From: a virus
Direction: 5' to 3' (one strand)
Length of the DNA stretch: 48,994 nucleotides
Virus record (IMG/VR): IMGVR_UViG_3300018080_000248
Location: 1-48,994 of that record
Both the position numbers and the translations under genes were made by a program. The notes under the pieces are model-generated. The model was not told where the DNA came from. It saw only the letters and a list, made by a program, of their open reading frames with translations, and did not search any database. Of this stretch, positions 4,991-18,752 are shown piece after piece. How positions within the stretch are numbered: the first letter of the stretch is position 1; every line of letters starts with the position of its first letter.

Positions 4991-5635
4991 ATGAGTAACG
5001 GCAATTTAAGTGCATTTTTCGGCGGCGAATTCGATCCGGCTACCGTCGAGCCACAGGCTGATTACGATGTCATTCCGCCCGGCAAGTATCCGGTGTTAGT
5101 CGAGAAGGCAGAGATCAAGCAAACGAAAGCCGGAAACGGTCACTACATCGAACTTATGCTCACCGTCCTGGACGGCCCTTGTAAGAATCGCAAACTCTGG
5201 GATCGACTTAATATCGACAATCCGAATCAAAAAACTATTGAAATCGCCAAGAAGACGGTTTCAGCTTTGTGCCGTGCTACTTGTGTCAGCCGGTTCAACG
5301 ACACAGATCAGCTTCTCGGCAAAATGTGCATCGCATCAGTTAAGGTCAAGGGCGATAACAACGAAGTGCGTACCTACTTACCCTTTCAAACCCCGCCTCA
5401 GCAACCCGTTGCGCCTCAGCAACCCGTTGCGCCTCAGCAACTTGTTGTGCCTCAGCAAGTAGCGACTCCTACCGGTCCAGTCGCCACGTCTTTACAAACG
5501 GCGCCCGTTGCGCCTCAGCAACCCGTTGCGCCTCAGCAACCTGTTGTGCCTCAGCAACCCGCGCAAACGGCTGGTCTGCGACCTTGGGAGAAGAATACTC
5601 AGCAACCTGTTGCACCGGATGGTATACCGTTCTGA
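4991..5635 (+). CDS. DUF669 family SSB-like protein with proline/glutamine repeat tail
   Basis: The N-terminal 130 residues match DUF669 (IPPGKYPVLVEKAEIKQTKAGNGHYIELMLTVLDG), a phage OB-fold-like protein linked to recombination ATPases. The C-terminal 80 residues are low-complexity QQPVAP repeats encoded by nearly identical 18-bp units. The protein ends in PDGIPF, like the acidic IPF tip by which bacterial SSBs recruit partners. This layout (core, flexible linker, tip) is what an SSB has. The start at ATG 4991 follows GAGGAAG. It lies directly after the Sak4-like gene and probably acts with it. Confidence 0.85.
   Translation: MSNGNLSAFFGGEFDPATVEPQADYDVIPPGKYPVLVEKAEIKQTKAGNGHYIELMLTVLDGPCKNRKLWDRLNIDNPNQKTIEIAKKTVSALCRATCVSRFNDTDQLLGKMCIASVKVKGDNNEVRTYLPFQTPPQQPVAPQQPVAPQQLVVPQQVATPTGPVATSLQTAPVAPQQPVAPQQPVVPQQPAQTAGLRPWEKNTQQPVAPDGIPF
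5396..5566 (+). repeat. 18-bp tandem repeats inside the DUF669 gene
   Basis: CCTCAGCAACCCGTTGCG occurs twice exactly at 5396-5431, followed by a variant copy and a partial copy. It recurs at 5513-5530 with two more variants to about 5566. A non-repeat spacer at roughly 5459-5512 separates two blocks. The units encode QQPVAP and likely expand and contract by slippage. Confidence 0.9.
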
Positions 5636-5645
5636 CTCTCCACTC

Positions 5646-5773
5646 TGCTCGCATGGATGTGAGCAAGAGGGTTGTCGCAACATCGGTTGTAGCTACCGAT
5701 GGGCTCCCCGGCTAAACGAGACTGAGACGCACAGCTACCGGCGCGCCGACTACCGACAACCCTCTTGCTCGTA
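5646..5773 (+). other. Multibranched intergenic RNA-like structure
   Basis: GAGCAAGAGGGTTGTCG (5661-5677) is perfectly complementary to CGACAACCCTCTTGCTC (5754-5770), a 17-bp stem extendable by wobble pairs to 20. Within it CATCGGT/ACCGATG (5681-5687 and 5694-5700) makes a hairpin. TGCTCGCA/TGTGAGCA (5646-5653 and 5658-5665) forms a competing 8-bp hairpin that uses part of the long stem. No credible gene is present. It may be a small RNA, a regulatory leader or a remnant mobile element. There is no convincing T-tract. Confidence 0.6.
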
Positions 5774-5819
5774 CCCCTCCGAAGACTAATAATGTGAACC
5801 TATTTACAGGGGAAGAAGT

Positions 5820-6221
5820 ATGCCGCAAGCTCCTACAGCTAACGGTTTCAAGTCGCTACGCAAGCTCGCAAGCGAGCTACTCGCAGCCAAGGCGGCCGAG
5901 TCCATTGCGAAGCAGGCGCGCATCGCAGTAGAGCATGAGATGGCAGCATTGGTGCCAGGTAACGACGAAAGCCAACGGACCATTTCGCTTGCCGATGGGA
6001 CGAGAATTACTGTCAAGCGTGGCTTAATTTACTCAGCCGACCTGGATGAGATCGAGAAGCTGGCTCTCGATCCGCCGATCAAGTCAAAAACGGTACGCGA
6101 ATTGGACCTGGAAATTTACAGGTGGTATCGCGACAACGACCCCAAGGCTTTTTCCGAGATCGCAAGACACGTCGAAACCAAACCGAGAAAGATTTTAGTC
6201 ACAGTAAAGGCGCCGAAGTGA
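5820..6221 (+). CDS. Conserved phage hypothetical protein, 133 aa
   Basis: ATG 5820 follows GGGGAAG. The product starts with a long amphipathic helix (SLRKLASELLAAKAAESIAKQARIAVEHEMAALV) and then a beta-strand section (QRTISLADGTRITVKRGLIYSADLDEIEKL). It ends in a basic strand (PRKILVTVKAPK). This coil-plus-strand layout is common in small proteins next to phage Sak4/nuclease modules, but their function is unknown to me. Its TGA overlaps the GTG of the radical SAM gene, so the two are translationally coupled. Confidence 0.75.
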   Translation: MPQAPTANGFKSLRKLASELLAAKAAESIAKQARIAVEHEMAALVPGNDESQRTISLADGTRITVKRGLIYSADLDEIEKLALDPPIKSKTVRELDLEIYRWYRDNDPKAFSEIARHVETKPRKILVTVKAPK

Positions 6222-6715
6222 AGAAACTGCGGCTCTTGTTGTTCCCTGACTGCGACCGTAATTGCAATGGTTGCTGTAATCGCGACTGGGATCTTGATGC
6301 GCTGCCGATGTGCCGGGACTTCAGCCCGTATGACGAAGTGCTGCTTACTGGCGGCGAGCCGATGCTACACCCAAATCTAGTGCATAGAGCGATTCGCCAA
6401 ATTCGTAGAACATCTGATGCTGATGTCTACCTATACACAGCTAACGTAATCCGTAATCACCGCACGCACGATGTATTGGCAGCCGCCGATGGAATTTGTG
6501 TCACGCTTCACGAGCAATGCGATGTAAGGCCGTGGCTGCGGTTCGCCTTTACGTCGCAGGAACTTACTGCTTATCGAAGTTGCCGGCTACATGTGTTTGC
6601 CGGCGTAAAACTGCCAAGAGTATTACCTGCTGACTGGCAAATCAAGGAAGGGTTGGAATGGCAGCCAGACTGTCCGCTGCCGGAAGGCGAAGTATTCATG
6701 CGATGGGAGCAGTAA
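6218..6715 (+). CDS. Short radical SAM protein
   Basis: The start GTG 6218 overlaps the previous stop (GTGA). The 165-residue product has the canonical CX3CX2C cluster motif at C12, C16 and C19 (CDRNCNGC). The GGEP motif is at about residues 45-48 (LLTGGEP). These bind a 4Fe-4S cluster and S-adenosylmethionine. It is much shorter than a full radical SAM barrel. Similar short forms include activases of the NrdG type and QueE-like 7-carboxy-7-deazaguanine synthases. No queuosine-type genes or ribonucleotide reductase are nearby, so the substrate is unknown. Its neighbour is an iron-sulfur nuclease gene. The stop overlaps the nuclease ATG (TAATG). Confidence 0.8.
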   Translation: MKKLRLLLFPDCDRNCNGCCNRDWDLDALPMCRDFSPYDEVLLTGGEPMLHPNLVHRAIRQIRRTSDADVYLYTANVIRNHRTHDVLAAADGICVTLHEQCDVRPWLRFAFTSQELTAYRSCRLHVFAGVKLPRVLPADWQIKEGLEWQPDCPLPEGEVFMRWEQ

Positions 6716-17541: not shown

Positions 17542-18708
17542 TCATTCTTGATTGTATAACCAGCCGCGAACTTTGTCGGCTAAGACCTTCAGTCGGCTGA
17601 TCTCATCTAAATTCAATTGACGGTACGTTCGCTTCTGAACGCTCTTATTGGTGTGGCCCATCGTTAGGTCAATCATAGCCTGGTCCGGTACGGAGTCAAC
17701 TACCGTGGCGTAGGTGTGCCGCAGCGAGCCGAGCCCGACTCCCGCTGTGCGTTGGCCTATCTGCTCTAGAAGCCGACCGAACGCCGTAACCAACGATCTT
17801 GATCCGCTGTCATGCGTGTATGGCTTACCGTGTTGTGTAAGCAGTAATTGTTGTTCGCATGTCGCCGGGTGCTTGCGGTGATTGATCCAGTAATCCTTGA
17901 TCGCCCTCACGGTTTCCGGCCACAAGACCGCCTTACGTTGTTGCTTTGTTTTAACGCGCCGGAAATCGTGATAGGAAAATCCGCCCGCAGGATTATTAAC
18001 ATGAATACGGCTATGCGGTACGGCAATCGTGTCACCCGGATAGAATGCGCAGTTGATACCGAGAAGGATCGCGACCTTCATACCCGGCTTCGCGGCGGCA
18101 AGGGTCGCTAAGATCGATTCGCGATCTAAGAACCTCACAACCCCAGCTTCTTCTTGCTCCGCTTCGATCGCTTTAAGCTTAGGGGCCTTGAACCGTGGCC
18201 CAAAGTTGATCTCGTCGAAGAAGCCCATCCCCCTTGGCCCGCCCCAATTGAAGACAGCCCTCGTGGACATGATGATGTTCTTTTGCGTCCGCAGGCTTCG
18301 GCCAGATTCCTCAAGCTTAGTCGCGACCATCGCGAAGTGAATCGGGCTAAGCGACTCGACCGGCATCCCACTCAGGCCGGCATCGCGGAAAAGCGCGGGC
18401 AGCACGAGGTAATCTCGTCGCGTCCTACCGGCGAGCTTCCCGGCGGAGATCCTCGCGTCAACGTCACTTAGATGCTTCTCAAGGAGCTTATCAACCGTAA
18501 TGCCACTGTTGTGCGTCGGTGGCTGAATGCCGGCCAAGAGATAATCCCTCTCTTTTAGCCATAACTGCAAGGCGGCGTCTCGGTCGTCTAGTCGGCCGAA
18601 GTAATAGACCTTCCCATAAATCCTCTTGGACCATTGGCCGCTCGGGTGGACGGTCAACGGGAAGTCTGAATGCTTTCGTTTCCAGTCGCGGTGCTCATTC
18701 AGGGTCAT
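17542..18708 (-). CDS. int: Tyrosine integrase, planctomycete-like
   Basis: The ATG with GGAGG just upstream gives 388 residues; a further ATG four codons earlier contains that site and is rejected. The N-terminus (HPSGQWSKRIYGKVYYFG) is typical of integrases I associate with planctomycetes. In the catalytic domain I see SLRHTYATV (R330, H331), MGHTNKS (H352) and the probable tyrosine Y362 in KRTYRQ. The first catalytic arginine expected near residues 219-226 is not clear: the segment reads NCAFYPGD. It should integrate the phage DNA at a host site. It has its own promoter at 18753-18781. Confidence 0.9.
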   Translation of the reverse strand: MTLNEHRDWKRKHSDFPLTVHPSGQWSKRIYGKVYYFGRLDDRDAALQLWLKERDYLLAGIQPPTHNSGITVDKLLEKHLSDVDARISAGKLAGRTRRDYLVLPALFRDAGLSGMPVESLSPIHFAMVATKLEESGRSLRTQKNIIMSTRAVFNWGGPRGMGFFDEINFGPRFKAPKLKAIEAEQEEAGVVRFLDRESILATLAAAKPGMKVAILLGINCAFYPGDTIAVPHSRIHVNNPAGGFSYHDFRRVKTKQQRKAVLWPETVRAIKDYWINHRKHPATCEQQLLLTQHGKPYTHDSGSRSLVTAFGRLLEQIGQRTAGVGLGSLRHTYATVVDSVPDQAMIDLTMGHTNKSVQKRTYRQLNLDEISRLKVLADKVRGWLYNQE

Positions 18709-18752
18709 TGGTGCCTCCATCTCAAGGGTAGCTTATCAAGTTGTCTATCCCT

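Follow-up and report, generated by a model that had tools for sequence, protein, structure and literature searches.

The window analyzed here is the whole of virus record IMGVR_UViG_3300018080_000248, 48,994 bases in length. At positions 5646-5776, in the junction between a gene for a DUF669 single-strand DNA-binding protein (SSB, gene ssb) and the gene downstream of it, lies what we are highly confident is a real, undescribed and conserved RNA element with two states. Two conserved folds exist, in which the 3' arm of a short hairpin (hairpin A) doubles as the base of a long stem (stem B). Both folds are kept by compensatory changes, and by calculation stem B is the thermodynamic and hairpin A the kinetic fold. 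The reading that we favor, with moderate confidence, is that of a cis-acting intercistronic switch which chooses between its states co-transcriptionally and is read by a CsrA-like RNA-binding protein.

Two folds that share one strand

A preliminary inspection of the letters (the sequence-only reading) had pointed to a 17-base-pair (bp) perfect inverted repeat enclosing a 7-bp hairpin, and to a separate 8-bp hairpin overlapping the long stem, such that the two states exclude each other. Both observations hold. The repeat occupies 5661-5677 and 5754-5770, with the enclosed hairpin at 5681-5687/5695-5701, and the chance expectation for such a repeat in the window, with a spacer of up to 100 nucleotides (nt), is ~ 0.0003. 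The stem can be extended to 23 nt on each side (stem B, 5655-5677/5754-5776), comprising the 17 bp, two G-U pairs, one A-C mismatch and three further pairs. The competing hairpin A has 8 bp, TGCTCGCA (5646-5653) with TGTGAGCA (5658-5665), or 7 bp and a six-base loop if A5653 and T5658 are taken as part of the loop. Because bases 5659-5665 are common to both once the stem is extended, hairpin A and stem B are mutually exclusive. For each strand, the RNA fold beats 200 of 200 shuffled sequences (z -3.35 and -3.59), and the window has a single copy of the element.

All strands of the element are on the plus strand. The 5' arm of hairpin A, s1 (5646-5652), covaries with s1' (5659-5665), the toggle strand used by both folds, which covaries in turn with s1'' (5766-5772), the rival of s1. 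Between s1 and s1' is the loop AUGGAU (5653-5658; family consensus ANGGAN), of which bases 5655-5658 also open the long stem. The upper arms of stem B, s2 (5666-5677) and s2' (5754-5765), are defined by the inverted repeat and by covariation. They enclose a centre (5678-5753) made of the inner 7-bp hairpin and a GC-rich arm, delimited by folding and by alignment with the homologous locus L008. The resemblance of the centre is limited to the window and L008, and in other elements it is replaced or short, so the conserved core must lie elsewhere. At the 3' end, ACCC (5773-5776) partners the loop bases GGAU in state B, with one A-C mismatch.

Homologues and specificity of the design

Relatives were retrieved through the SSB, AAA and Cas4-like proteins and the downstream protein. 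In many of them, the same three-strand design is found at the ssb/downstream junction in a different sequence, and 19 distinct examples were collected overall. The strand order is s1 - ANGGAN - s1' - s2 - centre (4 to 82 nt) - s2' - s1'' - NYCC. The SSBs of the carriers are mostly about 44-66% identical to that of the window, which indicates deep conservation of the element.

The design is concentrated at this place. A toggle scan of 3.4 million bases, both strands, gave 13 distinct matches just after ssb and only 3 elsewhere, the latter being two further copies and one cut copy of L008; with eight control loops, the scan gave 0-1 matches. When the loop alone was considered, 11 distinct hairpins with an ANGGAN loop and a stem of 6 bp or more were found after ssb, versus a mean of 0.375 over the 64 possible middle triplets. 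In two loci, L055 and L058, the ANGGAN hairpin stands alone, with no long stem, which identifies the loop hairpin as the core. Scans of viral contigs for the exact stem or the exact hairpin were uninformative, returning mostly chance matches apart from true relatives, and the element used as a DNA query had no match among cultured phages.

Some individual loci deserve mention. In L053 (position 5290), a sister of L051, stem B and an AAGGAT loop are kept and the s1:s1' hairpin is lost, making it a natural broken toggle. The near-identical contigs L002 and L003 differ at the ssb/downstream junction by a single C/T change in the 3' arm of stem B, where T gives an A-U pair and C a mismatch. ARAGORN did not confirm the tRNA-like sequences that seemed to be present in the gaps of L038 and L048.

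Covariation in both folds

For the covariation analysis, the arms of the 19 elements were linked by an artificial ten-A spacer, in a register taken from the structure. The pairing percentages, which lean upward because the elements were found partly by complementarity and which are also favored by joining the arms in the structure register, were 91.7% of cells for hairpin A (68.6 in shuffles) and 90.8% for stem B (66.1 in shuffles). Double-changed cells numbered 28 in hairpin A (6.7 in shuffles), 104 in stem B (29.1) and 35 in the lower part of stem B, where the strand is common with hairpin A (9.7). For each of these three sets, none of 500 shuffles matched the observed pairing percentage or double-change count. 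Slid registers all dropped to 26-50% paired, and the observed pairing was never reached in 5000 whole-strand swaps between elements. The specificity controls carry more weight than the pairing percentages. A covariation search was the check proposed in the sequence-only reading for its structured RNA with competing folds; the outcome is strongly positive for both folds and supports that proposal. Three-strand covariation of this kind, for which evidence is rare, backs the alternative-folding mechanism itself and not one fold alone.

The same data bear on another suggestion of the sequence-only reading, that the repeat is the remains of a small inverted-repeat element. Such a mobile element, or a DNA-level site such as a cruciform or recombination site, would account for an inverted repeat with 23-nt arms and for the presence, in some phages, of multiple copies at different junctions. 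However, the elements have little stem sequence in common and yet keep their pairing, and orientation and position relative to ssb stay constant while the sequence is swapped pair by pair. Transposon-type signs (target duplications, antisense insertions) were not seen. Moreover, the element is asymmetric, the loop hairpin being confined to its 5' side on the sense strand, and its near-invariant loop is meaningful on one strand only. We consider a mobile or DNA-level origin very improbable.

A near-invariant loop

The only letters that are invariant or nearly so in the 19 aligned elements are A.GGA.G around the loop and the CC that ends the 3' arm, where the last C is invariant and the preceding C nearly so. 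The ANGGAN loop is present in 19/19 elements and C-ANGGAN-G in 17/19; the closing pair is also altered in two weaker extra copies of L223. In the stem B alignment, the loop A is opposite U in 9 elements and opposite C in 10. By this alignment, the most conserved part of the element is the ANGGAN loop, which was absent from the sequence-only reading. That constancy is confined to A.GGA.G and this CC suggests that a protein recognizes the loop, and we consider it fairly likely that an ANGGAN-binding protein exists.

The loop also has to be considered if stem B alone were functional, as an RNase III processing site or mRNA-stability hairpin. The stem would then be a cut or barrier separating the stability of the ssb and downstream messages, with hairpin A aiding its folding. 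All copies do have a long, near-perfect double strand of free sequence, and many phages of this gene module, cultured ones included, have a strong hairpin after ssb. This explanation leaves unaccounted for the covariation of s1 with s1', the near-invariance of the ANGGAN loop and the lineages with only the ANGGAN hairpin, and it appears rather unlikely.

Energetics and a model for the proposed switch

In constrained folding, stem B was more stable than hairpin A in 19/19 elements, by 3 to 22 kcal/mol (3.7 in the window), and the nascent hairpin A had an energy of -8 to -17 kcal/mol. When the flank up to the start codon was included, the two states of the window were near equal (A -70.9, B -69.7), and the other elements still favored B. 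Given a stable nascent A and a more stable B, hairpin A would be expected first, with stem B following if nothing holds A. The distance from the end of stem B to the next start codon is 12-43 nt.

The favored switch could operate as follows. During transcription, hairpin A (s1-ANGGAN-s1') would fold first and expose the ANGGAN hexaloop. Once s1''-NYCC is transcribed, ~ 60-110 nt later in most copies, s1' could be captured by branch migration into stem B, which is longer and more stable and would also pair and hide the GGAN bases. A protein that binds ANGGAN, of the CsrA/RsmE-like kind and of host or phage origin, would hold state A, leaving s1'' single-stranded just 5' of the next ribosome-binding site. 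Absent the protein, state B would close a helix ending at the above distance ahead of the start codon. What we infer is that a protein binds, which protein this is, and that the output is at the level of downstream-gene translation (or processing). Among the options raised in the sequence-only reading, the best fit is regulation of the next gene: most copies lie in the sense orientation just 5' of a ribosome-binding site, and some relatives carry repeats of the element in other junctions.

Besides the upward lean of the pairing percentages, several points weigh against this reading. From A to B, the predicted accessibility of the ribosome-binding site did not change consistently (mean 0.48 in A and 0.50 in B), so translation control is deduced from position only. 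Neither 27 phage records nor three genomes with related genes yielded a CsrA family gene. CsrA was present in only 15 of 145 sampled genomes from the phylum of Cerasicoccus, the host of a related prophage, which may not be the phylum of the window's host. Finally, CsrA usually requires two sites, and the element has one hairpin; a GGA is frequent in the downstream ribosome-binding site. A partner from the CsrA family itself is a tentative proposal, and a rather doubtful one. Sequestration of the ribosome-binding site by s1'' had no consistent effect and was dropped as a candidate. GGA is frequent in the downstream ribosome-binding site.

A CsrA-like loop could also mean that the junction gives rise to a trans-acting small RNA or protein sponge, titrating a CsrA-like protein of the host. 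There are precedents in TwoAYGGAY and Bacillaceae-1, which have been proposed as CsrA-binding small RNAs, and AYGGAY-loop RNAs such as TwoAYGGAY have been predicted to bind CsrA (PMC4333381). However, each element has one loop and a phage usually has one element, the stable fold conceals the loop, and the constant location ahead of a ribosome-binding site argues for action in cis. We regard a sponge as quite improbable.

Additional copies and phylogenetic distribution

Multiple copies were found in two records, always in the sense orientation and between genes: record G003 has four, after ssb and at three further junctions, and record G020 has two. The same toggle at several junctions of one replication operon may represent a phage RNA regulon of a new class, a reasonable possibility that falls short of being probable. 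If true, this would imply that an undescribed protein binds the ANGGAN loop in bacteria most of which have no CsrA, and the time from hairpin A to s1'' would be the period open to regulation. The element itself offers a link that can be tested between the replication genes of phages and an RNA-binding protein of the CsrA-like or ANTAR-like kind in lineages of uncultured phages. The combination of an ANGGAN loop and a common strand can serve as a search rule for more examples.

Hairpins of related type occur nearby. At a fourth neighboring junction of record G003 (L223, minus strand, 6711), there is a 7-bp ACGGAG hairpin with no clear long stem. In L269 (3616; also L086, 8241), the loop ATGGAC caps a hairpin of more than 9 bp located 3' of the homologue of the window's gene 5820-6221; this is a different junction, and again there is no long stem.

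In an SSB tree, built on few columns and weakly supported, the element is scattered inside one part, and large groups outside that part lack it. At this position, cultured phages that share the gene module have plain hairpins. Searches of genome contigs and Verrucomicrobiota prophages found related AAA/SSB genes, with no element in the loci scanned.

Neighboring genes

The upstream gene (4991-5635, plus strand) encodes the DUF669 SSB (Pfam DUF669, 2.5e-16; PHROG 6015, 4.8e-33). Its C-terminal tail (5400-5560) consists of 18-nt repeats encoding P-V-A-P-Q-Q, a low-complexity sequence that is variable among relatives. The gap that follows (5636-5819, 184 nt) has short overlapping frames only and no recognizable gene, as the sequence-only reading had it. 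It ends with the likely ribosome-binding site AGGGGAAG (5808-5819, plus strand, assigned by sequence) before the ATG at 5820. The downstream gene (5820-6221, plus strand) is of unknown function, with a phrog_2480 match (2.4e-4); an NCBIfam search gave no family, and the product has a confident structure model without a PDB match. Next to it, and before a Cas4-like exonuclease, is a small 4Fe-4S/radical-SAM-like gene (6218-6715; Fer4_12, 2.2e-5) that by eye looks QueE-like. Farther away, at the border of two gene blocks, a minus-strand frame (17542-18720) reads like a tyrosine recombinase, which suggests a temperate phage.

Comparison with known RNA systems

A search of the window against Rfam 15 gave no family at the gathering cut-off; permissive thresholds added nothing useful, with microRNA matches far below cut-off. 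One close likeness is to the hairpins bound by CsrA and RsmE, for which the consensus is A/U-CANGGANG-U/A (PMC5864733). The loop of hairpin A and its C-G closing pair fit the CANGGANG consensus, and the outer A/U flanks are not conserved. Like the element, the hairpins of the hcnA leader, RsmZ and CsrB present an ANGGAN hexaloop, usually closed by C-G and reading CANGGANG. The element differs in being a single site, in having a long stem that hides GGAN in a three-strand toggle, and in occurring in phages. TwoAYGGAY (RF01731) shares the AYGGAY type of hairpin loop, but has two such hairpins where the element has one, and no toggle is described for it in the literature examined. Its covariance model had no match in the window (gathering score) or in 11 element-bearing loci (permissive E-values).

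The overlap logic of the element resembles that of the ANTAR-responsive antiterminators of the eut, nasF and amiE leaders, defined by a hexaloop with A1 and G4 and a distal arm overlapping a longer hairpin (PMC3369936). In both, the hexaloop has A1 and G4 and the 3' arm of its hairpin overlaps a longer downstream hairpin; in the antiterminators, a loop-binding protein decides between the folds. The element could accordingly be an attenuator of this type, with A as an antiterminator held by the protein, B as a terminator or pause hairpin, and binding leading to read-through downstream. The seven T behind stem B in L043 would agree with this, as would more distant relatives, in which plain hairpins at this position precede T-rich stretches. 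However, the P1 hairpin and the U-tract of these systems are missing in most copies. The nine bases after stem B have 0-3 T in 18 of 20 copies, the exceptions being L043 (8 T) and L045 (6 T), and a second hexaloop hairpin (P1) is missing within about 95 nt upstream in 16 of 20. No ANTAR gene was matched in 16 phage records, a weak search because control genomes gave no match either. We therefore judge an ANTAR-type attenuator unlikely, though the best of the alternatives to the favored switch.

Other Sak4/DUF669/Cas4 phages have plain intercistronic hairpins in the same genomic place after ssb, which differ from the element in lacking both the ANGGAN loop and a common toggle strand. On these comparisons, we assign the element to neither the CsrA-target nor the ANTAR family, and consider that it probably works like them.
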